Origin: a virus
IMG/VR virus record: IMGVR_UViG_3300023174_005575
Coordinates: 1 to 57,983 of that record
DNA length: 57,983 bases
Reading direction: 5' to 3' (one strand)
Shown: positions 130 to 56,635 of the stretch, in pieces
How positions within the stretch are numbered: position 1 is the first letter of the stretch
How the letters are laid out: the number at the start of each line of letters is the position of its first letter
The notes under the pieces: model-generated
What the model saw: only the letters and a program-made list of their open reading frames with translations
The model's database searches: none
Told to the model about the DNA's origin: nothing
Translations under genes and position numbers: made by a program

Positions 130-1329
130 TCAAAACCTACTAAACACATCCTTAAGAGCAATGATCAGCTTTTCGATCATGCCATCGTCATGGTATGGAG
201 TTGGAGCAAATCTTAGTCGTTCTGTGCCCACTGCAACTGTAGGATAGTTAATAGGTTGAACATAGATATTGTGATCATCTAACAAGGCATCACTCATGGC
301 CTTACAACGAACAGCATTGCCCACTAGCACTGGTACAATGTGTGATGTGGAAATATCCATATATGGTAAACCAGCTTCAATCAATGCTACTTTCAGTTTG
401 AGGGCACGTTCTTGATGCTTGTCTCTTAGTTCTTGATGTTCTTTCAACCACTTTACAGCAGTCAATGCACCAGCACAACTAACTGGGCTCATACTGGTAG
501 TAAAGATAAATCCGGCTGCTACGCTACGAATAGCATCAATCACATCAGAGTCTCCAGCAACATAGCCACCTTGCACGCCAAATGCTTTACCTAATGTGCC
601 GTTGATTAAGTCGATCCTAGACTCTAGACCTAATTGTTGAGCAACCCCTCCGCCTTGTGGTCCATACAATCCTACAGCATGTACTTCGTCGATGTAGGTA
701 ATGGCTTCGTATTCATCTGCTAGATCACAAATTTCTTTAATTAGGCCAATGTCGCCGTCCATGCTATAAACACTTTCAAATACGATACAGGGAGTTTGAC
801 CTTGAGCTTTAACTTCCTTTAAAATACGTTCTAGGTCTGCCATATCGTTGTGTTGAAATACGGTCTTTGCTGCTCGGCTATGACTGATGCCTACAATCAA
901 GCTATTATGATTTTGGCTATCGCTAATGTAATGAATGTCGGGAATGATCTTGCTCAACGAAATCAATGTCCATTCGTTGGCCACGTAAGCACTGCTGAAT
1001 AGTAGAGCTTTGGATTTGTTATGCAAGGTAGCAAGTTCGTTCTCTAGGGCTACGTGATAGCTGCTAGTGCCGCCAATGTTTCTAGTACCGCCCGAGCCTG
1101 AGCCAGTTTGATCTAATGCTGTATGCATGGCATCAATCACTGCTTTGTGTTGTCCCATGCCCAAGTAGTCGTTGCTGCACCAGTTTACGATGTTTTTAAT
1201 AGTAAACTTGCCGTACCAGATAGCATTGGGGAATTCGCCTTTTTCACGAACAATGTTATTGAATACTCTGTATTTGCCAGAATCTTTAAGATCCTTAAGT
1301 AGTTTATGAAATTGAGTTTTATTAATCAT
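130..1329 (-). CDS. hemA: 5-aminolevulinate synthase (ALAS, Shemin pathway)
   Basis: This 399-residue PLP enzyme condenses glycine with succinyl-CoA to 5-aminolevulinate, the first committed step of tetrapyrrole synthesis by the C4 route. Family signatures are intact: [10 protein letters not shown] at 50-59, [12 protein letters not shown] at 81-92, SVYSMDGD at 186-193, IDEVHAVG at 213-220 with the PLP-contacting D214 and H217, GTLGKAFG at 244-251 with the Schiff-base lysine K248, and [18 protein letters not shown] near the C-terminus. The length matches bacterial ALAS (about 400). The gene is minus-strand, convergent with the Dps-like gene and divergent from the structural genes. A TATAAATA box at 1344-1337 lies 7 bases before the ATG and no Shine-Dalgarno is visible, so the mRNA is probably leaderless or nearly so. 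Related acyltransferases (KBL, BioF) lack the ALAS-type C-terminal motif seen here. No broken residue was found. Confidence 0.96.
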
Positions 1330-6496: not shown

Positions 6497-7254
6497 AATT
6501 TTTTGAATTGACTGACAAGCCTCGCCCAGATGATGGTAGTGAACCTATCATCAAGGCCTTTGTGAAGTTTACCAGTCAAAAACTAGGCTTGAAAGAGCCA
6601 CCTAAAATTAAACTACATAGAAATCCCAAGCTGGCCAGTCAACGTCGTAGCTTTGGTGGATACATGCCAGGACAGGGCATAGAGATTAACATTGGCAATA
6701 GACATATTATGGATGTGTTACGTACTCTAGCACATGAAATGGTACACTACAAACAAGACATCAATGGCCAACTCAAACCAGACAGTGGCAGAGATGGTAG
6801 TGATGAAGAAAACGAAGCAAATGCCAAGGCCGCTGTGGTCATGCGCCTATGGGCTAAGATGAATCCTGAATTATTTCAACACGCTACCATATTGGCAGAG
6901 AGCCAAAAGAACAGACTAACACCTAAGCACATACATAAAATAGCAGATAAGAAAGGCATTAAATGGGATGACGAGCCAGCCTTCTTAAAACTAACTAGAC
7001 GTGTTGCTGGACATAGATATCTAGATGACTTGGATCAAGATGGTTTATTCAAAATGAAAAACTATTTGGATAACCTTGATGAGAACTTTGCTGATGGCCG
7101 TAATCCTCAAGACAAAGGGGATAGTGCTAGACATGGCATACCCAAGAAGGCCAGTTTAGGCACATTGGATAAGATAGGTCATGGATCAGGGCGTAAAGCA
7201 CAATTAGCCAGATGGCAGGCCAATATGCGTAGAGGAAGAAACAAGCATGATTGA
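6493..7254 (+). CDS. Phage zinc metallopeptidase-like protein (HExxH)
   Basis: A 253-residue protein with a clear zincin signature, [11 protein letters not shown], giving H81, E82 and H85. Acidic residues at 104-109 (DEENEA) can supply the third metal ligand. SprT-like and related phage peptidases have the same helix. The C-terminal half is basic and helical (ending RRGRNKHD) and contains a [14 protein letters not shown] segment echoing the AG motif seen in other virion proteins of this phage. The N-terminus [10 protein letters not shown] matches the recurrent M[KR]xxE[LIF] start. It overlaps the preceding Cys-rich gene by four bases and hemF by eight. It might process virion proteins or act after delivery into the host; the substrate is unknown. 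Confidence 0.75.
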
Positions 7255-8149
7255 TTCAAAAGCAGTTAAAACTTGGCTACTTGGTCTTCAACAAAACATA
7301 GTATATATGTTGGAAATGAACGAAGAGTCAGCCAAATTCAAAGCAGACGAATGGAGTAAACCTACTGGAGAAGGTATAACTTGCATACTGGAAGGTGGAC
7401 AACTACTTGAGCGTGGAGGAGTTGGGTTTAGCCATGTAACAGGCAATCAACTACCACCATCGGCCACAGCAGCACGCCCACACCTAATAGGCAGAAAGTG
7501 GGAAGCAATGGGAATGAGTCTAGTGTTTCATCCACTCAACCCATATGTACCAACCGTACATTTAAATGTGCGCTTCTTTGTGGCACAGGCCACAAGCAAC
7601 GAACCAGCAACGTGGTGGTTTGGTGGTGGTATGGATCTTACTCCTTACTATGGTTTTGATGACGATGCTGAGCACTTTCATCGTACTTGCAGCGATGCAT
7701 TGCGTCCATTTGGTGAAGACGTCTATGCCAATTATAAAAAAGCCTGTGATGAATATTTTTATCTCAAACATCGTAATGAACCTAGAGGCATAGGCGGCAT
7801 ATTCTTTGATGACGTAGACACACCAGACTTTGACACAGCATTTGCCTTAACTAGAGCAGTGGGCGATAACTTTTTGTCAGCTTGGATGCCTATTGCACAG
7901 CGAAGACGTGACTCGGCATACGGGCCAGAACAAAGAGCATGGCAAGCATATCGCCGTGGCAGATACGTAGAGTTTAACCTAGTATGGGATCGTGGCACAT
8001 TATTTGGCCTACAGAGTGGAGGCCGTACAGAAAGCATACTGATGAGTATGCCACCCAATGTTACTTGGAGTTATGACTATAGACCAGAAGTCAATAGTCC
8101 AGAAGCTCTATTATATGAGCGTTATCTAAAACCCAAGGATTGGATATAA
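7247..8149 (+). CDS. hemF: Oxygen-dependent coproporphyrinogen III oxidase (HemF)
   Basis: A 300-residue enzyme, about the same length as E. coli HemF. It oxidatively decarboxylates coproporphyrinogen III to protoporphyrinogen IX with O2, the antepenultimate step of heme synthesis. Hallmark blocks are continuous: [72 protein letters not shown] and [13 protein letters not shown]. No gap or lost motif was found. The start overlaps the upstream peptidase by eight bases, so it is probably coupled to the 6296 operon. A stem-loop terminator follows four bases after the stop. The oxygen requirement means it would work in oxic water. It complements ALAS, HemD-like and the heme oxygenase encoded elsewhere in the window. 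Confidence 0.97.
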
Positions 8150-18897: not shown

Positions 18898-21231
18898 ATG
18901 AATAAAATTACAGTCAAGAAACGAAACGGGGTCAGTGTTCCTTTAGATTTAAGCAAATGGCAGACACAAATTGCCAAAGTATGCAGCGGTGTAGCTGATG
19001 TTAGTCAAAGTATGATAGAGATCAAAGCACAGCCGCATTTTTACGATGGTATTACCACTAAGGAAATTGATGAAATTACCTTACGTGCTATCGTTGATTT
19101 GATTGATATTGAAAGTAATCCAGATACGGGCAATACTAACTATCAATATGTGGCGGGGAAGCAACGTCTCAGTATGCTACGCAAAGATGTATACGGCAGC
19201 TATGATGTTCCTAGGCTCTATGATATAGTTAAACGCAATGTAGCAATAGGCCTATATACTCCTGAACTACTAAAATGGTACACTGAGGCAGATTGGAATA
19301 CTATTGATTCCTTTGTTCGACATGAACGTGATGAAGAGTACAGTTATGCTGCTATTGAACAGCTAATTGAAAAATATCTTGTGCGTAATCGTAGTACTAA
19401 AGAAATTTATGAAACACCACAAGTTCGTTATATTATTGCGGCAGCAACTATCTTTCATAAGGAAGAGCCGTTGAGTGCTAGAATGCGTTATATTAGGGAG
19501 TATTACAATGCAGCCAGTGATGGGTTATTTACTTTGGCGACTCCAGTATTGGCTGGTCTCGGAACCCCTACTAAGCAGTTTAGTAGTTGCGTTCTCATAC
19601 GCAGTGATGACGATTTAGACAGCATCTTTGCCTCAGGCGAAATGATGGCTAAATATGCCAGTAAACGTGCAGGCATTGGATTAGAGATTGGTAGACTACG
19701 CCCATTGGGTAGTCCAATTAGGGGAGGCGAGATCATGCATACTGGCATGATTCCGTTCTTAAAGAAATGGTTTGGGGATCTTAGATCCTGTTCACAAGGA
19801 GGGATTAGAAATGCTTCAGCGACTGTATTCTATCCGGTCTGGCATCACCAATTTGATGACCTTATTGTGCTCAAAAATAACCAAGGCACAGAAGAAACCC
19901 GAGTCAGACATATGGACTATGGTGTCGTACTCTCAGCATTCTTCTGGCGTAGGTTTAAGAACAAAGAAAATATTACGTTCTTCGACCCAAACCAAGTACC
20001 GGACCTCTACGAAGCCTTCTACTCCAATACAGAAAAGTTCGAAGAGCTCTATGTAAAATACGAAAATCAAGCAGGTCTTCGTAAAAAAGTTATTAGTGCT
20101 GAAGAAGTATTCAAAAGTGGCATATTAAAAGAACGCACAGATACAGGACGTATCTACTTGGTGTTCATTGACAACGTAATGAAGCAGGGCCCATTTGATC
20201 CTGACTATCATACAATTTACCAGAGTAATCTTTGTTGTGAAATTCTACTTCCTACTCGCCCATTCAAGCGTTTGGATGATAACGATGGCCGTATCGCTCT
20301 ATGTACCTTGGGATCGATTAATTGGGGTGCGTTCAGAAATCCCGAGGATATGCGCCGTGCCTGTCGTATTCTCCAGCGCAGCCTATGTAACATACTTGAT
20401 TATCAGGACTTCCTCAGTATTCAATCCAAACTGAGTAATGACGAAATTCAACCATTAGGGATTGGAGTAACTAACTTGGCCTATTGGCACGCCAAGCGTG
20501 GCTTTAAGTACGGTGATAAGGATGCCCTACAAGATGTTAAGAGTTGGATAGAACATCAAGCTTATTACTTGACTGAAGCCACTGTAGAGTTGGCCAAAGA
20601 ACGTGGCCCATGTAAAGACAGTCATAAGACAAGATATGGGCAGGGCGTATTCCCTTGGGAACTCAGAGCTGATGCAGTTAATGATCTAGCAGAGTTTACA
20701 CCAGAACTTGACTGGGAAACCCTACGTGCTAATATGAAACAGTATGGTGTACGCAATGCCACAATGATGGCTATTGCTCCTGTAGAGTCCAGCAGTGTGG
20801 TAATTAACAGCACTAATGGTATTGAAATGCCTATGAGTCTAATCAGTGTGAAAGAAAGCAAAGCAGGCAGTTTCATTCAAGTTGTTCCAGAGTATCATAG
20901 ACTTAAAAATCGTTATCAACTCATGTGGGAACAGAAGGATTGTGTTGGCTATTTGAAAACAGCAGCAGTATTGGCTGCCTATGTGGATCAAAGCATCAGT
21001 ACCAACACATTCTATAGTCCCAAACATTTTGCAGACCGTAAAGTGCCTAGTACATTAATTGCTAAGAACCTAATGCAAGCACATATTTGGGGATTGAAAA
21101 CATTGTATTACAGTTTGATAGATAAGCAGGGTAGTAAAATGCCCGAACCCACACCCGAAGTACATTACAACGGGTTTGACAATCACAGAGAGTTAATCGA
21201 GGACGAGGACTGCGAGGCCTGTAAATTATGA
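18898..21231 (+). CDS. nrdA: Class Ia ribonucleotide reductase, large subunit (NrdA)
   Basis: A 777-residue catalytic subunit reducing ribonucleoside diphosphates to deoxyribonucleotides. Key residues line up with E. coli NrdA at an offset of about +7: the redox pair C231 (QFSSCVL) and C469 (IALCTLGSIN), and the radical C446 in QSNLCCEI with N444 and E448. The C-terminal shuttle pair is C772 and C775. An ATP-cone-like regulatory domain occupies the first 95 residues. Nothing is missing. The stop overlaps the nrdB start (ATGA), and glutaredoxin follows, giving a complete nucleotide-supply unit. Phage RNRs convert host nucleotides into genome precursors. Confidence 0.97.
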   Translation: MNKITVKKRNGVSVPLDLSKWQTQIAKVCSGVADVSQSMIEIKAQPHFYDGITTKEIDEITLRAIVDLIDIESNPDTGNTNYQYVAGKQRLSMLRKDVYGSYDVPRLYDIVKRNVAIGLYTPELLKWYTEADWNTIDSFVRHERDEEYSYAAIEQLIEKYLVRNRSTKEIYETPQVRYIIAAATIFHKEEPLSARMRYIREYYNAASDGLFTLATPVLAGLGTPTKQFSSCVLIRSDDDLDSIFASGEMMAKYASKRAGIGLEIGRLRPLGSPIRGGEIMHTGMIPFLKKWFGDLRSCSQGGIRNASATVFYPVWHHQFDDLIVLKNNQGTEETRVRHMDYGVVLSAFFWRRFKNKENITFFDPNQVPDLYEAFYSNTEKFEELYVKYENQAGLRKKVISAEEVFKSGILKERTDTGRIYLVFIDNVMKQGPFDPDYHTIYQSNLCCEILLPTRPFKRLDDNDGRIALCTLGSINWGAFRNPEDMRRACRILQRSLCNILDYQDFLSIQSKLSNDEIQPLGIGVTNLAYWHAKRGFKYGDKDALQDVKSWIEHQAYYLTEATVELAKERGPCKDSHKTRYGQGVFPWELRADAVNDLAEFTPELDWETLRANMKQYGVRNATMMAIAPVESSSVVINSTNGIEMPMSLISVKESKAGSFIQVVPEYHRLKNRYQLMWEQKDCVGYLKTAAVLAAYVDQSISTNTFYSPKHFADRKVPSTLIAKNLMQAHIWGLKTLYYSLIDKQGSKMPEPTPEVHYNGFDNHRELIEDEDCEACKL

Positions 21232-22328
21232 GTAAAGAACAATATAACCTAACCACTAAGACAGACTATTTAAATCGTAAAATGTTCTTGGATCCAGCTG
21301 GTCCAGTTACTATACAACGTTTCGAAGAAGTAAAATACAAAAAGATTGTAGACTTTGAACAGACAGCCCGTGGGTTCTTTTGGGTGCCAGAGGAAATCAG
21401 TTTGACCAAAGATGCCAGCGACTTCAAAGATGCCAGCAGTAGCATACGTCATATCTTTACCAGCAATTTGCTACGTCAAACAGCATTGGATAGTATACAA
21501 GGTCGTGGACCAGCACAGGTGTTTACTCCTTGTGTAAGTTTACCAGAGATGGAAGCACTGATGTATAATTGGAGCTTCTTTGAAACTAATATACACAGTC
21601 GTAGCTATAGCCACATTATTCGTAATATCTATAATGTACCTAAAGATGTGTTTAATACTATCCATGATACCAAAGAGATAGTGGACATGGCGTCAAGTGT
21701 GGGTAACTATTATGATCAATTGCACATAATTAATTGTCATAAAGAGCTTGGCGAGACAATCAGTGAAAAGGTACACGTTAGATCTATTTGGTTGGCACTC
21801 AATGCCAGTTATGCTTTGGAGGCATTTAGATTTATGGTGTCATTTGCCACCAGCCTAGCCATGGTAGAGAATAAAATCTTTATTGGCAATGGCAACATTA
21901 TTAGTCTTATCCTACAGGATGAACTATTACACAAAGGCTGGACTGCTTGGTTAATTAATCAAGTAGTAAAAGAAGATGCAAGATTTGCTCAAGCAAAACA
22001 AGATTGTGAACAGGAAGTATATAGTATGTACTTAGATGTGATCCGTGAAGAAAAAGCCTGGGCAGACTATTTGTTTATGAAAGGTCCAGTAATTGGATTA
22101 AATGCTAACATTCTAAAAGATTTTGTGGATTATACAGCAGCCGCAGCCTTAAAAGATATTGGCCTAAAGTACATGAGTCCCGCACCCAAGACTACTCCTA
22201 TTCCTTGGTTCAATAAACATAGTGATACTAGCAAAAAGCAGACAGCTTTGCAGGAAAATGAATCGACTAATTATGTTATAGGAATTATGGGCGATAGTAT
22301 TGACTATGATGAGCTGCCCATGTTATAA
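21228..22328 (+). CDS. nrdB: Class Ia ribonucleotide reductase, small subunit (NrdB)
   Basis: A 366-residue radical-generating subunit. The aspartate ligand lies in ALDSIQGRGP, the central helix reads FFETNIHSRSYSHI with E119, H123 and the probable radical tyrosine Y127, and the second helix pair gives ALEAFRF and QDELLHKGW ligands. Compared with E. coli (E-T-I-H), there is one extra residue between the glutamate and histidine ligands. The C-terminus (DYDELPML) keeps the acidic tail needed to dock onto NrdA. It is coupled to nrdA by ATGA and followed 18 bases later by glutaredoxin. It should be active unless the extra residue breaks the metal site. Confidence 0.95.
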   Translation: MSKEQYNLTTKTDYLNRKMFLDPAGPVTIQRFEEVKYKKIVDFEQTARGFFWVPEEISLTKDASDFKDASSSIRHIFTSNLLRQTALDSIQGRGPAQVFTPCVSLPEMEALMYNWSFFETNIHSRSYSHIIRNIYNVPKDVFNTIHDTKEIVDMASSVGNYYDQLHIINCHKELGETISEKVHVRSIWLALNASYALEAFRFMVSFATSLAMVENKIFIGNGNIISLILQDELLHKGWTAWLINQVVKEDARFAQAKQDCEQEVYSMYLDVIREEKAWADYLFMKGPVIGLNANILKDFVDYTAAAALKDIGLKYMSPAPKTTPIPWFNKHSDTSKKQTALQENESTNYVIGIMGDSIDYDELPML

Positions 22329-41130: not shown

Positions 41131-41517
41131 ATGGCATACTCAACACAGGTAATCGATCACTATGAAAACCCACGCAATGTGGGTAAAATGGATCCTGAAG
41201 ACACTAATGTGGGTACAGGACTTGTAGGAGCACCTGCTTGTGGCGATGTAATGAAGCTACAAATTCGTGTGGAAGATGGCGTTATAACAGATGCCAAATT
41301 TAAAACATACGGATGTGGTAGTGCTATTGCTAGTAGCAGCCTAGTTACTGAATGGGTCAAAGGCAAAACATTAGATGAAGCTGGTACTATTCGTAATACT
41401 GATATTGCACAAGAACTGGCATTGCCACCAGTTAAAATACACTGTAGTATACTAGCAGAAGATGCTATCAAGTCTGCTATTGATGACTATAGAAAAAAAC
41501 ATGTTGACCCTAACTGA
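41131..41517 (+). CDS. iscU: Iron-sulfur cluster scaffold IscU
   Basis: A 128-residue IscU-type scaffold on which Fe-S clusters are built. The three ligand cysteines are C37 (APACGDVMKL, with the regulatory D39), C62 (TYGCGSAIASSS) and C105 (KIHCSILAEDA). The LPPVK recognition loop for the HscA chaperone is at 98-102. The length equals cellular IscU, so it should be functional and usable by host IscS and HscA. The downstream iscA start lies inside its last codons, giving a coupled pair. It may support clusters of ferredoxin needed by the bilin reductase or other phage-boosted enzymes. Confidence 0.97.
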   Translation: MAYSTQVIDHYENPRNVGKMDPEDTNVGTGLVGAPACGDVMKLQIRVEDGVITDAKFKTYGCGSAIASSSLVTEWVKGKTLDEAGTIRNTDIAQELALPPVKIHCSILAEDAIKSAIDDYRKKHVDPN

Positions 41518-41821
41518 AAAGGCAGTAATAAGAGTTAAAGAGCTACTACAGCATAGGGGCAAAGGCCTCGGTATCAAACTGGGTGTAAGAACTAATGGAT
41601 GCTCCGGTATGAGCTATACATTAGAATTTATAGATTTAGTTGATGAAACGCTAGCTATATATGACTGTAATGGTGTTCATGTCTATATGGATCCAAAACA
41701 TACTATATACCTTAAAGGCGTAGAGATGGATTGGGTAACGAAGGGACTTAACTCTGGATTTGAGTTTAACAATCCCAATGAAAAGAGCCGCTGTGGATGC
41801 GGAGAAAGCTTCAGCATATGA
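41501..41821 (+). CDS. iscA: A-type iron-sulfur carrier IscA
   Basis: A 106-residue A-type carrier that receives Fe-S clusters and delivers them to target proteins. Cys ligands are C34 (RTNGCSGMSY) and the C98-G-C100 pair (SRCGCGESFSI). The start at 41501 (MLTLTEKAV) gives the family's usual length and overlaps iscU by 17 bases. A longer upstream frame does not fit the family. The next gene overlaps its stop by ATGA. With IscU this forms a minimal scaffold-plus-carrier pair; no cysteine desulfurase is in the window, so sulfur must come from host IscS. Confidence 0.96.
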   Translation: MLTLTEKAVIRVKELLQHRGKGLGIKLGVRTNGCSGMSYTLEFIDLVDETLAIYDCNGVHVYMDPKHTIYLKGVEMDWVTKGLNSGFEFNNPNEKSRCGCGESFSI

Positions 41822-47915: not shown

Positions 47916-48353
47916 ATGAACGCAATGACTCGTTTTGACACCCAAGCTCTAAACAGAGCACTTGTTGGATTTGATCGTATGTTTGACACATTCGAGACTA
48001 GATTCGGCAATCAACTCAGTTCAAACTATCCCCCATATAATGTAGTCAAAAAAGATGACGATCATTATGCTATTGAAGTAGCAGTCGCCGGCTTTAAAAA
48101 GAACGAAATTACTGTGGAAGTGGATGGTGATCAACTCACAATCAAAGGACAGCGTAACAAAGACGAAGCTGATGAAGTGCAGTATATGCATCGCGGACTC
48201 AGTGCTCGTGATTTTGTTCGCCAGTTTACTTTGGCTGAGTATATGTTGGTTCGGGGTGCTTCAATTCAAGATGGCGTGATTCGTGTTGATTTGGAACGAG
48301 TAGTTCCGGATCATATGAAACCACGCTTGATTGACATTGTAGAAATTAAGTAA
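47916..48353 (+). CDS. hsp20: Small heat-shock protein (Hsp20/IbpA type)
   Basis: A 145-residue alpha-crystallin-domain chaperone. The domain runs about 38-130: YNVVKKDDDHYAIEVAVAGF, then KKNEITVEVDGDQLTIKGQ and the dimer-loop region RGLSARDFVRQFTLAEYM, ending GVIRVDLERVVP. A short PRLIDIVEIK tail follows. It holds unfolding proteins in solution. A late promoter, a structured leader and AAAAGGAG imply high expression. Phage copies of Hsp20 are known in T4-like cyanophages; a role in folding virion or redirected metabolic proteins is likely. Confidence 0.95.
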   Translation: MNAMTRFDTQALNRALVGFDRMFDTFETRFGNQLSSNYPPYNVVKKDDDHYAIEVAVAGFKKNEITVEVDGDQLTIKGQRNKDEADEVQYMHRGLSARDFVRQFTLAEYMLVRGASIQDGVIRVDLERVVPDHMKPRLIDIVEIK

Positions 48354-48409: not shown

Positions 48410-48733
48410 ATGAACATGTCCGATGATGTTAAACTAGAAGATCGAGTTCAACTAGACGAAAAGATTAAACAAAAAATCATTGAACCTAAAAAATGGAAAG
48501 TGATTTTTTTAAATGATAATCATACTCCCATGGAGTTTGTTGTTACTGTATTGATTGAAATTTATAAACACACAATGGAAGTTGCACAAGAACTTACACT
48601 TCAAATTCACGACACCGGTAGTGGTGTTGCAGGTACATATACATTCGAGATAGCGGAAATTAAAGCAGTAGAAACTACTAACTTGGCAAGGGCACAAGGC
48701 TTTCCGCTACAAATTAAACTTGAAGAGGAATAA
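48410..48733 (+). CDS. clpS: ClpS adaptor protein
   Basis: A 107-residue ClpS. The core WKVIFLNDNHTPMEFVVTVL matches the family's substrate-binding block (N-D-x-x-T-P-M-x-x-V), and the rest of the fold is present through GVAGTYTFEIAEIKA. The N-terminal 27 residues are the charged extension that enters ClpA. ClpS delivers N-degron proteins to ClpAP. A phage copy could redirect host proteolysis. GGAG lies four bases before the ATG at 48410. It is followed directly by heme oxygenase (no gap), suggesting co-expression. Confidence 0.94.
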   Translation: MNMSDDVKLEDRVQLDEKIKQKIIEPKKWKVIFLNDNHTPMEFVVTVLIEIYKHTMEVAQELTLQIHDTGSGVAGTYTFEIAEIKAVETTNLARAQGFPLQIKLEEE

Positions 48734-49282
48734 ATGAGTTTACGAGAGATCACTAAGGATCTGCACCACGAAGCAGAAACTACAAAATTTGCCAAACTAC
48801 TATTAAGTGGCAAAATTAGCAAAGAAGATTACGCAAATTATCTATATCAAATGTTACTGGTCTATGGCCCAATTGAGTTTGGCAATAGAATGGTTGGTAA
48901 CATGGACAACCTAAAAGGCATTGAAAGATTGCCTGCTATCTATAAAGATTTTATGGAATTAGCTGGACCAGATCATAAGTATGTTTGGCTACCAGAAAGC
49001 ATTGCTTACCACAACTATCTAGTTGACTTGATCAATGATGTTGATCGTAGACATTTGATTAAGGCACATTTATACTGCCGTCATATGGGCGACCTTAATG
49101 GTGGATTGATTATTAAGAAGCAAGTTGCTGCTATCAGCAGTGGACATTTCTATGAATTTGATAATGCTGCTGAACTTAAAGTGGCTATTCGTGCAGAACT
49201 AACAGATGACTTGGGCGACGAAGCTCGTGTGGCATTTGAATGGGCCATTAGAATGATGAAGGATTTGTATAATGGTGAGTAA
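48734..49282 (+). CDS. ho1: Heme oxygenase
   Basis: A 182-residue, all-helical heme oxygenase that opens heme to biliverdin, CO and Fe2+. The proximal heme ligand is H11 in TKDLHHEAE, matching the family T-K-x-x-H-x-x-A-E. The distal helix is YCRHMGDLNGGLII, the counterpart of Y-L-G-D-L-S-G-G with the flexible glycines. The protein is slightly shorter than cyanobacterial HO-1 (about 240), as in other phage versions. It overlaps the bilin reductase gene by 11 bases, making a two-gene cassette. Electrons would come from host ferredoxin. Confidence 0.94.
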   Translation: MSLREITKDLHHEAETTKFAKLLLSGKISKEDYANYLYQMLLVYGPIEFGNRMVGNMDNLKGIERLPAIYKDFMELAGPDHKYVWLPESIAYHNYLVDLINDVDRRHLIKAHLYCRHMGDLNGGLIIKKQVAAISSGHFYEFDNAAELKVAIRAELTDDLGDEARVAFEWAIRMMKDLYNGE

Positions 49283-49955
49283 AGTTTGGGATTCACTTAT
49301 TTCCGTACAGAACCTTCTTGAGGAAAGTTTTGCTAGAACTGGCGTTGAGCAGTTTGAAAAAGGCATGGAGCGGTTCAATCAACCTGGTTGGGTTAATCGT
49401 GTATGGAGTAGTGAGTCCTATCGTCGTGCTCACGTTGACGTAGTAGACGCTAGAGAGAAAAAGGGCTTATGGATGATGCATTGTTGTGTGTTTCCACATA
49501 CGCATAATCCAGCCCCAATCTTTGGCTTTGACGTCATTGCAGGAAAAAACAAGATCACTGGCTGTTTCTATGATTACAGCCCAACCAGTGATGACGTTCA
49601 TCCTATGACAGAGTGGTTCCAGCATGAAGTTAGTAAAATGGCATGGCACAAGCCTAGAGCATTGCCAGAGTGGGCACAGCGTATTTTCAGTCCCAGTATG
49701 GTAGCAGCAGGCAATGTGCAGGATGAAGAAGAGTTGGATCAAATAGTAGCCATGGCTCGTACTGGTGTTGACCATTACCTTGCTACGGTAGGCGAAACCA
49801 ATCATACTGCCACGGACACCAGTGATAGACAGAATTATTACGCACAGAATCAAAAACAAAACCCACATACTCCCAAAGTTATGGTTAGTTTGGGCCTAAG
49901 TGAGGATGATGTGCGAGTGTTTATTCAGGAGTGCCTCTTCCCAGAAATTGCATAA
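49272..49955 (+). CDS. pcyX: Ferredoxin-dependent bilin reductase (PcyX/PebS-like)
   Basis: A 227-residue FDBR that reduces biliverdin with ferredoxin electrons. Family blocks are YRRAHVDVVDAREKKG (residues 50-65), PAPIFGFDVIAGKNKITG with the catalytic-type D87, GCFYDYSP, and a C-terminal QNYYAQNQKQNPHT with a terminal ECLFPEI. The family includes PcyA, PebA, PebB, PebS and the phage enzyme PcyX; from memory the last was described from uncultured ocean viruses beside heme oxygenase. Which product is made cannot be told from sequence alone. No bilin lyase or phytochrome is in the window. It overlaps heme oxygenase by 11 bases. Confidence 0.93.
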   Translation: MVSKVWDSLISVQNLLEESFARTGVEQFEKGMERFNQPGWVNRVWSSESYRRAHVDVVDAREKKGLWMMHCCVFPHTHNPAPIFGFDVIAGKNKITGCFYDYSPTSDDVHPMTEWFQHEVSKMAWHKPRALPEWAQRIFSPSMVAAGNVQDEEELDQIVAMARTGVDHYLATVGETNHTATDTSDRQNYYAQNQKQNPHTPKVMVSLGLSEDDVRVFIQECLFPEIA

Positions 49956-52895: not shown

Positions 52896-52928
52896 TCCTA
52901 GGGTATGTTAGCAATATTTACCAAAATA

Positions 52929-52958
52929 TTAGCATTTTTCAAACTAAGACTATATAAT
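52929..52958 (+). promoter_or_regulatory. Possible sigma70 promoter for the outer-membrane barrel
   Basis: TTAGCA (52929-52934), 18 bases and TATAAT (52953-52958). AAAGGAG and the ATG at 52989 follow. Confidence 0.4.
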
Positions 52959-52988
52959 ATGCAAACATTCTTTACAAAGGAGAAATTT

Positions 52989-53543
52989 ATGAAGAAAATC
53001 GTTACTATCGCAGCTCTAATGGCAGCTACCACTTTGGCTAGTGCTGCTAGCATCACCATCGAAGGCCAAGATCAACAAGGTCATCGTGGTGCTCGTGATA
53101 GCACAAACTATTCACTCAGCGTCAAGTATCCAGTCAATAAAACTTTTGCTGCTGATATTGGTTTCACTGCTTATCAACAAGATGGTACCAAAGCATTGAG
53201 CAACAGGCTCGAAGCTGGTGTCACTGGCACTATGCCAGTTGGTCCAGTAAGCTTATATGCTCGTGTTGCAGTAGGCGAGAAATTCAGCAATGGTGCTGAT
53301 TTTGAGTACTACAGTGTTGAGCCAGGCGTTGTATACAATTTTACCGACAAACTAAGTGGTAAAGTAGGCTATCGTTTCCGTAATGGATTTGGCAACAATG
53401 GCAATTTTGACACTACTCACACTGCTCGTGCTGGTGTTAGCTATGCCTTGACCAAGCAGGACACAGTTGGTGTTCGTTATGACCAAGTTCGTGGTGACAG
53501 CTTTAACCACAGCTTTAACTTTGCATATACTCGTTCATTCTGA
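52989..53543 (+). CDS. Outer-membrane beta-barrel protein
   Basis: A 184-residue protein with a signal peptide (KKIVTIAALMAATTLASA-A, cleavage about 19-20). The mature chain alternates polar and hydrophobic residues in about eight strands (YSLSVKYPV, AADIGFTAYQ, NRLEAGVTGTMPV, SLYARVAVGEKF, VVYNFTDKLSGKVGYRFRN, ARAGVSYAL, TVGVRYDQVRG) and ends in F, the outer-membrane insertion signal (FAYTRSF). ATG 52989 is chosen because AAAGGAG precedes it; the frame stays open upstream. A strong terminator follows. It may mask or replace receptors, blocking superinfection, or act as a pore. Confidence 0.85.
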   Translation: MKKIVTIAALMAATTLASAASITIEGQDQQGHRGARDSTNYSLSVKYPVNKTFAADIGFTAYQQDGTKALSNRLEAGVTGTMPVGPVSLYARVAVGEKFSNGADFEYYSVEPGVVYNFTDKLSGKVGYRFRNGFGNNGNFDTTHTARAGVSYALTKQDTVGVRYDQVRGDSFNHSFNFAYTRSF

Positions 53544-53599: not shown

Positions 53600-53836
53600 A
53601 TGAACCCACTTGATCTTAAAACACAACAAATAACCAATGCCATCTTTGAGGTGATAGAACTGGCCTATAGTCAAGGTAGAACCATAACATGGAGAACTAT
53701 TTTTGAATTTCTCCAATTACCAGACATAGCTTGGAAAGAACAACACGATCTCGATGAAAAAATTATTATCGAAAGTGAGAGTGATTTGGTTATTTTAAAG
53801 GCCATGTTAAGCAGTAATTTTGCCACCAAACATTAA
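53600..53836 (+). CDS. 78-aa phage protein of unknown function
   Basis: A 78-residue helical protein: MNPLDLKTQQITNAIFEVIE, then AYSQGRTITWRTIFEFLQLP and an acidic DEKIIIESESDLVILKAML helix. It starts shortly after the terminator; TTAAATAA at 53587-53594 is a promoter candidate with the ATG six bases later, again a leaderless layout. It is followed by the amidotransferase-like gene one base after its stop. No family is known. Confidence 0.65.
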   Translation: MNPLDLKTQQITNAIFEVIELAYSQGRTITWRTIFEFLQLPDIAWKEQHDLDEKIIIESESDLVILKAMLSSNFATKH

Positions 53837-53837
53837 A

Positions 53838-54479
53838 ATGACTCCTACAATAGCTTTATTCATTGCCGATCCTAAATGTTCAGTACAAAGCGGCAATGGA
53901 ATACTTAAAGCCTTAGGTGACTATTACAAATTTAAAATCTTCAGCAAAAATTCATTAGAGTCTGACTTCTTTGACAATGTAGACATGGTAGCAGTGCCTG
54001 GTGGTTTTGGCGATGCGGATTCATTTGACACGTTATTCAAACTTAACGCACCCAGAGTAAAACAGTTTGTTAAACAAGGTGGCAAATATCTTGGTATATG
54101 TATGGGTGCGTATTGGGCAGGAAAACACTATTTGAACATGTTGGATGGTGTAGATGCTGTACAATATATTCACAGGCCCAACACAGACACACGTAGACCA
54201 CATGCCAAAGCACAAACAGTATTATGGGCAGGTCAAGAAGAACAGATGTTTTTTTACGATGGATGTGCCCTAATTGGACCAAAAATAAATTCTTGTGACA
54301 TATGGAGTTTATATCCCAACGGTGACCCCATGGCCATTGTACAGGACAATATTGGTTTAATTGGATGTCATCCTGAAAGTGAACAGTTTTGGTATGACAG
54401 CTATAGTTGGATGCGTAAACACTGGCATGAAGGAAAACATCACGAATTGTTACTTGATTTTGTTAATGAACTAATGTAA
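53838..54479 (+). CDS. Class-I-amidotransferase-like protein (BPL_N type)
   Basis: A 213-residue protein with an alpha/beta flavodoxin-like GATase fold. VAVPGGFGDADSF is the oxyanion strand, the nucleophile elbow is GKYLGICMGAYWAG with C88, and the His-Glu pair is in LIGCHPESEQFW. This matches the biotin-protein-ligase N-terminal (BPL_N) group, not full glutamine amidotransferases. The substrate of this group is poorly known. The ATG at 53838 is preferred over a TTG upstream. It sits between the barrel gene and the lipid-remodelling genes. Confidence 0.78.
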   Translation: MTPTIALFIADPKCSVQSGNGILKALGDYYKFKIFSKNSLESDFFDNVDMVAVPGGFGDADSFDTLFKLNAPRVKQFVKQGGKYLGICMGAYWAGKHYLNMLDGVDAVQYIHRPNTDTRRPHAKAQTVLWAGQEEQMFFYDGCALIGPKINSCDIWSLYPNGDPMAIVQDNIGLIGCHPESEQFWYDSYSWMRKHWHEGKHHELLLDFVNELM

Positions 54480-54501
54480 TATTTGCTACTAAATGTTGTA
54501 A

Positions 54502-54507
54502 TAAATA
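54502..54507 (+). promoter_or_regulatory. TAATAAATA late-type promoter
   Basis: TAATAAATA followed by TAGGAG and the ATG at 54526. Confidence 0.5.
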
Positions 54508-54525
54508 TGTAATCTAGGAGCAATT

Positions 54526-54687
54526 ATGAAACAAAATAAACTAGTTCGTAAAGTCTATGAAGCCTGCATTGAAAACAATCTTGAACGATTACAGGAACTT
54601 AAGAAAAAAGAGTTTGCAAAAATCTTCAAGCGTAAGGGAAATGGTAAAACAACGTTCGGCTCCAAATGGTCTGTAATAAGATTGTAA
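54526..54687 (+). CDS. 53-aa conserved-type basic phage protein
   Basis: A 53-residue basic helical protein with its own late promoter and TAGGAG site. It opens MKQNKLVRKVYEACIENNLE, followed by an ELKKKEFAKIFKRK helix and a short basic tail ending SVIRL. From memory, very similar short proteins occur in other marine T4-like phages. The charge suggests nucleic-acid or ribosome binding. It ends 34 bases before plcP. Confidence 0.75.
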   Translation: MKQNKLVRKVYEACIENNLERLQELKKKEFAKIFKRKGNGKTTFGSKWSVIRL

Positions 54688-54710
54688 TAGGAAAGAGTTG
54701 TACGACTCGG

Positions 54711-54721: not shown

Positions 54722-55510
54722 ATGCAGCAAAAAAAATTTCGAACAATTGCTATTAGTGATGTACATTTAGGCACTAAAGATTGCAAAGCCGAATATTTAA
54801 ATAATTTTCTTAAACACAATACCTGTAATAAATTGTATCTCATAGGGGATATAATAGACGCTTGGAAAATAAAACAAAATCGTCTTAAATGGCGTCAAAG
54901 CCATACTAACGTAATTCGCCGCATACTGGGACACGCCAAGCGTGGAACCGAAGTAGTTTATGTGGCAGGTAATCATGACGAATTTTTAAGACCAATGATA
55001 CCTTATGGGCTAAGTTTTGGTCGTATTAAAATCTGCAATCAAGCAGAACATATTGGCATAGATGGCAAGAGATACCTTGTGGTGCATGGTGATTTATTTG
55101 ATGGTATTACTAGGCTGGCACCTTGGCTCAGTATATTAGGAGATAGGGCATATGACTGCGTTCTTAACATTAACACTAAACTCAATTGGATTCGTCATCG
55201 TATGGGTTTTGGCTACTGGAGCCTTAGCCTGTACCTTAAGCACCGGGTCAAAAAAGCGGTAGATTTTATGTTTCAATTTGAACTAAATCTAGCCAGTTAT
55301 TGTAAAAAGAAGGGCTATGATGGAGTGATCTGTGGACATATACACAGGGCTGAAATTAAACAAGTAGATGGAATTGTCTATATGAATGATGGAGACTGGG
55401 TGGAAAGTTGTACAGCACTAGTTGAACATTGGGATGGTCGTTGGGAAATCATAACTTGGTCGGAGATTCAAAAAAATGACATGGCTATTGATACTGCTAG
55501 CAGTACATAA
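54722..55510 (+). CDS. plcP: PlcP-type phospholipase C (metallophosphoesterase)
   Basis: A 262-residue calcineurin-like metallophosphoesterase. Metal ligands are all visible: D13 and H15 (ISDVHLG), D43 (LIGDIIDAW), N84 and H85 (AGNHDE), H122 (VVHGDLFD), and H206 and H208 (CGHIHRAE). The length and sequence fit the LpxH-like group that includes PlcP, which hydrolyses phosphatidylethanolamine, phosphatidylglycerol and phosphatidylcholine to diacylglycerol in phosphate-starved alphaproteobacteria. LpxH itself is the main alternative; the Agt gene next door favours PlcP. The ATG at 54722 is supported by promoter spacing. In infection it would free phosphate and head groups. Confidence 0.82.
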   Translation: MQQKKFRTIAISDVHLGTKDCKAEYLNNFLKHNTCNKLYLIGDIIDAWKIKQNRLKWRQSHTNVIRRILGHAKRGTEVVYVAGNHDEFLRPMIPYGLSFGRIKICNQAEHIGIDGKRYLVVHGDLFDGITRLAPWLSILGDRAYDCVLNINTKLNWIRHRMGFGYWSLSLYLKHRVKKAVDFMFQFELNLASYCKKKGYDGVICGHIHRAEIKQVDGIVYMNDGDWVESCTALVEHWDGRWEIITWSEIQKNDMAIDTASST

Positions 55511-55658
55511 AACTAATCCCAATGATATTCCTGGACGAGTAACACTTGAGTTTGAAAGCCAAGCCGCATGTGAACGTAGTTTATCTAACATGGAGTATTG
55601 GCTCAAGTTTGACAGTTTTAAGGTGGAAGGCAGATGTATAAAAAAATCCTCATCATAA
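55476..55658 (+). CDS. 60-aa overlapping protein between plcP and agt
   Basis: A 60-residue frame filling the 123-base space between plcP and agt and overlapping both ends (35 and 25 bases). It starts MTWLLILLAVHKTNPNDIPG and has a C-terminal half with two Cys (ACERSLSNMEYWLKF, EGRCIKK). The hydrophobic start could be a signal or membrane anchor. The overlaps and the protein-like pattern support it; there is no known family. Confidence 0.5.
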   Translation: MTWLLILLAVHKTNPNDIPGRVTLEFESQAACERSLSNMEYWLKFDSFKVEGRCIKKSSS

Positions 55659-56635
55659 CAGACAATGTACCATCACAAGTTAATGGCGTGGTTACAACAT
55701 TTAATAACTTGGAAATATATGCTGAACGTGACGGTTATGATTTTGTTTATCTTGATCCCCGGCAGTTTAATCATATTCCCTGTCCTGGCTATGGTGAAGT
55801 CAAACTTAGTTGGACATGGGGCATTGGACGCATTATTCAAAAAGTGGATCCGGATTATATCCATATTGCCACGGAAGGACCAGTAGGATTTGCTGCTCGT
55901 TGTTGGATGGACTATTGGGGCTGGCGTTATAACACCAGCTATCATACAAGATTCCCAGAAGCCATAAACAAAATTGCAGGCATACCTACAGATTGGAGTT
56001 ATCGTTACTTACGTTGGTTCCATAAGCATAGTGGCCGTGTACTAACTACTACACAGAGCATGGTAGATGATTTAGTCAGTCGTGGATTTAGAACTGATAT
56101 TAAGCCATGGACTCGCGGTGTAGATCGAGACGTATTTAATAGCACTACAAGAACAGCCACAAACAAAAGGCAACCTATATTGTTAAGCGTAGGGCGTGTC
56201 AGTAAAGAAAAGAATTTGGATGACTTCTGTAGATTGGACTACCCCAATGCTACTAAAATTGTAGTGGGTGATGGACCATGCCGTCGTCGTATGGAACGTG
56301 AATACCCAGATGTTGAATTCGTCGGGGTAAAGCGTGGATTAGAATTGGCTCAATATTATGCTGATGCAGATGCCTTTGTATTCACCAGTCGTTGGGACAC
56401 ATTTGGTATAGTAATGATTGAAGCCATGGCCTGTGGCACTCCCGTGGCAGCCTATCCAGTAACTGGACCACAGGATGTTATTGATCAAGGTCTAACAGGT
56501 TATATGGACGAGGCCCTTAAAACTGCTGTAGATCAATGTTTGAAATTAGATCGAGTTAAGGTGGAAGAAGCCAGCTTACGTTGGAGTTGGCAGGAATGTT
56601 GGAATATATTCAGAGATAACTTAGTATATAAATGA
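55634..56635 (+). CDS. agt: Agt-type diacylglycerol glycosyltransferase (GT4)
   Basis: A 333-residue GT-B glycosyltransferase. N-terminal ITDNVPSQVNGVVTTF, IATEGPVGFAARC and TSYHTRFPEAI are the acceptor-side blocks; LLSVGRVSKEKNLD and the donor-binding SRWDTFGIVMIEAMACG, then TPVAAYPVTGPQDV follow. This block order, including D in place of the first Glu of the E-x7-E motif, matches alphaproteobacterial Agt. Agt adds glucose, galactose or glucuronate to diacylglycerol to make glycolipids replacing phospholipids. Adjacent plcP supplies the diacylglycerol. The sugar used is unknown. A general GT4 mannosyltransferase is the alternative. Confidence 0.85.
   Translation: MYKKILIITDNVPSQVNGVVTTFNNLEIYAERDGYDFVYLDPRQFNHIPCPGYGEVKLSWTWGIGRIIQKVDPDYIHIATEGPVGFAARCWMDYWGWRYNTSYHTRFPEAINKIAGIPTDWSYRYLRWFHKHSGRVLTTTQSMVDDLVSRGFRTDIKPWTRGVDRDVFNSTTRTATNKRQPILLSVGRVSKEKNLDDFCRLDYPNATKIVVGDGPCRRRMEREYPDVEFVGVKRGLELAQYYADADAFVFTSRWDTFGIVMIEAMACGTPVAAYPVTGPQDVIDQGLTGYMDEALKTAVDQCLKLDRVKVEEASLRWSWQECWNIFRDNLVYK

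Follow-up and report, generated by a model that had tools for sequence, protein, structure and literature searches.

The window analysed here is a virus record of 57,983 bases, which encodes phage tail-fibre and virion structural proteins, exonucleases and NrdA. Towards its end, a plcP-like metallophosphoesterase gene is followed by an agt-like gene for a GT4 glycosyltransferase (Table 1), as the preliminary description had it, and Pfam matches and motifs confirmed that both genes are complete and lie on the + strand at the positions given there. The order, plcP before agt, stood as well; the direct adjacency did not, since a short conserved gene, orfX, lies between the two and overlaps both. 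NrdAB, which had been placed next to the pair, was found at 18898–22328, about 32 kb away. orfX itself, a cassette version with a GT2 glycosyltransferase and the phage pstS/phoX context are additions to that description. The plcP ATG is located at 54722, in a reading frame that is already open from a TTG at 54698.

Table 1. Positions of the cassette, its upstream elements and further genes in the window
Feature	Position	Strand	Basis or observation
plcP-like metallophosphoesterase, 262 aa, complete	54722..55510	+	Pfam, LpxH cut-offs, tree, motifs, fold
orfX, 60 aa, conserved; overlaps plcP (3' end) and agt (5' end)	55476..55658	+	viral co-occurrence, selection, AF2 model
agt-like GT4 glycosyltransferase, 333 aa, complete	55634..56635	+	Pfam GT4, GTcp motif mapping, Agt tree
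Pho-box-like direct repeat CTGTAATAAGATTGTAAT, with 33 nt between its end and the ATG of plcP	54671..54688	+	11/14 to CTGTCAT-N4-CTGTCAT, 13/14 to CTGTMAY-N4-CTGTMAY
Weaker second Pho-box-like repeat TTGTAATAAATATGTAAT, 5' of the 53-aa ORF	54496..54513	+	12/14
53-aa ORF immediately 5' of plcP	54526..54687	+	homologues in 42 viral loci, 0 cellular
Class-I glutamine amidotransferase / BPL_N-like gene	53820..54479	+	in 56 viral plcP loci, 0 cellular
Porin-like outer-membrane protein	52905..53543	+	relatives in 13 viral loci, one (L051) after a Pho-box-like repeat
ORF straight after agt, reaching the contig end	56687..57982	+	region kept after agt in L003, L005 and L083
Tetrapyrrole genes	130..1329; 7247..8149; 48734..49282; 49272..49955	-; +; +; +	see text
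IscU/NifU_N-type scaffold and adjoining iron-sulphur biosynthesis (IscA-type) gene	41131..41517; 41462..41821	+	IscU relatives (82–84%) near plcP in L003 and L005
Genes for an Hsp20-type small heat-shock protein and a ClpS adaptor	47916..48353; 48410..48733	+	homologues at 23 (Hsp20) and 17 (ClpS) plcP loci of viruses

Identity of the two enzymes

The plcP product matches the Metallophos family at 3e-12 (Pfam) and displays the full metallophosphoesterase motif set (SDVHLG, GDIIDAW, GNHDE, VHGD and GHIH), with S12/D13/H15, G42D43xxD46, G83N84H85D86, H122 and G205H206xH208 invariant across 42 aligned rows. It is up to 60% identical to alphaproteobacterial homologues, most of which have an adjoining agt, and a plcP homologue was present in 104 of 289 Alphaproteobacteria genomes; a PHROGs search of the plcP/agt pair gave no informative family. 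The enzyme could instead be an LpxH-type lipid A enzyme, with the GT4 acting on LPS, a reading in line with LpxH as the best PDB match of the AF2 model (pLDDT 78.5, with the helical region above the active site poorly resolved) and with the annotation of a homologue from Pelagibacter phage Mosig EXVC030M (QOI69083.1) as UDP-2,3-diacylglucosamine hydrolase. The fold match therefore speaks for a shared general architecture, but scores against the LpxH equivalog models (NCBIfam) stay far below their cut-offs, at 48.2 bits versus 134 for NF003743 and 37.1 versus 190.35 for TIGR01854, and the protein is 22% identical to LpxH of E. coli. In addition, the window PlcP and every aligned cellular or viral relative except that of phage S-SRM01 (GNHE) show GNHD where E. 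coli LpxH has GNRD, His thus taking the place of the LpxH Arg, and the partner gene encodes an Agt-type glycosyltransferase.

Tree placement likewise argues against LpxH. In the maximum-likelihood tree, whose bootstrap is not fully settled, whose LpxH outgroup is a single row and whose rows do not include the named characterised PlcPs, the viral sequences nest among alphaproteobacterial PlcPs, with LpxH set apart by a branch length of about 9 substitutions per site. We therefore rejected an LpxH identity of the first gene and regard the lipid A reading as very improbable; profile search and phylogeny agree with the earlier proposal that the product of 54722–55510 is, by these sequence characters, a PlcP-type metallophosphoesterase and not a true LpxH. 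Most viral rows fall into one group (92/98), outside of which L097 and L155 are located, and it is therefore possible that viral plcP was acquired more than once.

For the second gene, Pfam returned Glycos_transf_1 at 2e-21 and Glyco_transf_4 at 8e-15, and the product features H104, R161, GRVSKEKN, D255TFG, E263 and W319. The SAR11 enzyme GTcp employs a His104–Asp256 dyad, in which Asp substitutes the usual GT4 Glu, and contains the motifs GRVAXEKN and FPSXTDTFG; mutation of G16, G82, G85, H104, T162, R163, R190, K195, D256, T257, F258, G259, E264 or W320 abolished its activity completely or nearly so (PMC8231724). All 14 of these residues are matched in the window Agt, as G18, G82, G85, H104, T160, R161, R188, K193, D255, T256, F257, G258, E263 and W319, in a mapping that relies on motifs and the text of PMC8231724 and not on direct alignment. 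In the Agt tree, the viral sequences group in a single clade (98), separate from the cellular Agts. Judged by residue mapping and tree, the product of 55634–56635 is an Agt-type GT4 and no unrelated GT4, which is what had been suggested for it.

Within the viral clade a version with Glu at the position of the catalytic Asp arose once (90). It is found at 61 of 126 viral Agt loci, counted without deduplication, while the window Agt is of the Asp version. Since the Asp-to-Glu change lowered GTcp activity by more than 90% (PMC8231724), this substitution counts against the predicted glycolipid role for those Agts that carry it.

A conserved third gene within the cassette

orfX was found in at least 44 viral loci with plcP directly upstream in 44 of 44, the next gene being Agt in 27 and GT2 in 16, and it was absent from all 49 cellular plcP loci examined. 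Its residues W3, D17, P19, C32, K44 and C54 are invariant, and dN/dS against the nearest relative is about 0.06–0.07. The AF2 model gives a confident beta-beta-alpha-beta fold (pLDDT 94.6), for which a fold search returned no PDB match. As a guess from this model, orfX may act as an adaptor or regulator.

Recurrence of the cassette in viral and cellular loci

In more than 100 viral loci, plcP is accompanied by agt. This recurrence, together with a dN/dS of about 0.06–0.09 for both genes against their nearest relatives, excludes chance as the origin of the pair; all three genes, orfX included, are by this measure under strong purifying selection. Scans of viral contigs yielded at least 581 PlcP and at least 147 Agt stretches; as these scans required exact short peptides and kept the best 80 loci, counts are lower bounds and ratios lean towards the query. 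The alternative glycosyltransferase of the cassette is a GT2 (Pfam Glycos_transf_2), unrelated to Agt and present in at least 399 viral stretches. Among the best 80 of these 399, plcP was found at 70 of the 70 loci with enough upstream sequence and Agt at none. Viewed from plcP, a glycosyltransferase lies downstream in 179 of 184 distinct viral loci (97%; duplicates removed, at least 1.5 kb of downstream sequence each), GT4 in 112 and GT2 in 67, and neither in 5. Cellular loci follow the same gene order, with an agt homologue at 42 of 49 fetched PlcP loci, and the cassette GT2 was absent from all 49. Bacterial plcP is also known to adjoin other glycosyltransferases, one of which makes di- and triglycosyl-DAG (PMC4796936). 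A constant PlcP combined with an exchangeable glycosyltransferase is the pattern that a route from diacylglycerol to glycolipid predicts.

In one locus, a nucleotide-sugar dehydrogenase-like sequence is located about 5 kb from plcP (L011:1559–2794, +), whose product could supply UDP-glucuronate to Agt, and the PHROG for UDP-glucose dehydrogenase had two matches in the scanned neighbour set.

The position of the cassette near the contig end leaves room for the suspicion of a contaminating or chimeric host fragment in a viral bin, all the more as IMG/VR includes some false positives. However, the same cassette recurs in many long viral contigs near genes for RNR, thymidylate synthase and endolysin, orfX and the genes flanking the cassette were found repeatedly at viral loci but at no cellular locus examined, and the GC content of the cassette matches that of the window. 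plcP is furthermore present in the isolated phages Mosig and S-SRM01. On the phage-gene neighbours, the viral-only orfX and flanks and the GC match, we rejected a cellular fragment, which we consider the least probable of the explanations weighed here.

Clues to the host are few: no tRNA was found for host assignment, and no near phage relative for the 20 kb tested. The window also encodes a tetrapyrrole set of 5-aminolevulinate synthase (575.6 bits, above cut-off), coproporphyrinogen III oxidase, heme oxygenase and ferredoxin-dependent bilin reductase, the first of which hints at an alphaproteobacterial link without proving it.

Pho-box-like sites and phosphate genes

Taken on its own, CTGTAATAAGATTGTAAT upstream of plcP is weak evidence of a Pho box; a strict CTGTCAT-N4-CTGTCAT scan of the whole window found 9 sites versus 7.3 expected, which is not significant. 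The envisaged PHO-box-like sites emerged from comparison: at least 12 of the 14 positions of CTGTMAY-N4-CTGTMAY were matched in 56 of 137 dereplicated viral plcP upstream regions (41%) versus 40 of 1,670 regions upstream of the remaining ORFs of the plcP contigs (2.4%, not deduplicated; P = 2e-42). The pattern had been relaxed after the first match was seen, and the same-contig control is therefore the important comparison; further controls gave 5% (reverse complement) and 0.5% (shuffled sequences). Matches upstream of viral plcP concentrate at -35 to -60, and the enrichment persists in both glycosyltransferase versions. It also persists in upstream regions that do not contain the small ORF (41/115), so that we rejected mere coding conservation of the 53-aa ORF as its source. 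More than half of the viral plcP genes have no scored box, and T4-type late promoters (TATAAATA) were neither enriched nor present at the cassette.

Other boxed ORFs on the viral contigs include many pstS-like and five PhoX-type genes. Of 89 well-flanked viral plcP loci with a glycosyltransferase, 25 have pstS at a distance of no more than 5 kb, and in L160 phoX, a pstS-like gene, plcP and agt stand in one row as an operon; neither pstS nor phoX was found in the window fragment. Pho-box-like repeats were also observed 5' of a family of alanine-rich phage proteins of about 215 aa (starting MRFEDLAARLV...) in L271, L281, L305, L336 and L003. From the box site and the comparative enrichment, the cassette would, at the level of motifs only, constitute a Pho-regulated operon.

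Proposed function

We propose that plcP-orfX-agt is probably a phage lipid-remodelling cassette behind a Pho-box-like promoter, which would free membrane phosphate. In a host starved of phosphate, PhoB would bind the Pho-box-like site and switch the cassette on. PlcP would, as expected from its family, cleave phosphatidylglycerol, phosphatidylethanolamine and other phospholipids in an Mn-dependent reaction to diacylglycerol and a phospho-headgroup, while Agt, by analogy to GTcp, would use UDP-sugars to convert diacylglycerol to MGlc-, MGal- or MGlcA-DAG and so keep the membrane intact. The released phosphate would then feed phage DNA and nucleotide synthesis. The host may, however, already make glycolipids itself, which counts against this reading.

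The same enzymes could make glycolipids to a different end, in which the phage gains an altered host envelope, by way of superinfection exclusion, receptor masking or membrane stability, and not phosphorus. Glycosyltransferases that change host surfaces are common in phages, and this general observation lends the envelope explanation some weight. Phage attachment in Ruegeria is, moreover, affected by membrane lipids (PMC9938194). Pointing to phosphate instead are the Pho-box-like sites with their pstS and phoX neighbours and the strictness with which plcP accompanies even the GT2 version in the loci with enough upstream sequence among the best 80, and we consider an envelope function unlikely as the main benefit.

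In this aquatic phage and in many relatives, genes predicted to release membrane phosphate, here beside a Pho-box-like site, suggest host membranes as a source from which some phages draw the phosphorus for copying their DNA. More broadly, many aquatic phages may carry a Pho regulon of their own, consisting of plcP-orfX-GT, often with pstS and sometimes with phoX, by which host phospholipid would become phosphorus of phage DNA while glycolipid replaces it, with orfX as a phage-specific adaptor and the GT4 and GT2 versions leading to different lipids; from the comparative sequence data we favour this wider picture, if with reserve. DNA phages have a high need for phosphorus per burst, and their hosts are often phosphorus-poor plankton. 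To our knowledge, the phage phosphorus genes known so far scavenge from outside the cell; the cassette would draw on the membrane of the cell itself. If the proposal holds, glycolipids in aquatic waters would in part be produced as a result of infection itself.

In line with the preliminary description, no phage plcP-agt pair, nor plcP among auxiliary metabolic genes, is described in the literature searched, from which preprints and subscription papers were largely missing. Viral surveys name 'lpxH' genes instead (PMC10653327, PMC9611531), and if these are PlcP, the pathway has been overlooked so far. What appears to be new is a lipid-remodelling cassette of phages that includes orfX and comes in two glycosyltransferase versions; bacterial PlcP-Agt and phage Pho-box genes were already known.

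Comparison with known systems

The closest bacterial counterpart is the plcP-agt 'type 2' operon of Alphaproteobacteria, including SAR11 (PMC4796936; GTcp, PMC8231724), with which the cassette shares gene families, order, catalytic motifs and an upstream Pho-box-like site. In contrast to this operon, it is phage-encoded, contains the inserted orfX and has a glycosyltransferase slot that alternates with GT2; the viral genes form clades of their own, and in a part of the viral Agts Glu takes the place of the catalytic Asp.

Among isolated phages, Mosig encodes a PlcP relative of 48% identity, whose gene stands back-to-back with a pstS-like one and is not discussed in the genome announcement. Unlike in the window cassette, no agt, GT2 or orfX homologue is present in the fetched part of its plcP flank. 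With Pelagibacter as host, Mosig offers a cultured system for the plcP half.

Cyanophages carry the PHO-regulon genes pstS and phoA with PHO boxes, and resemble the phages described here in placing phosphate-scavenging genes downstream of host-type Pho boxes. Here, however, the phages are uncultured, and the cassette bears no photosynthetic-host signature. Beyond the cyanophage set, they add phoX and would, with the membrane phospholipids, gain an internal source of phosphorus.
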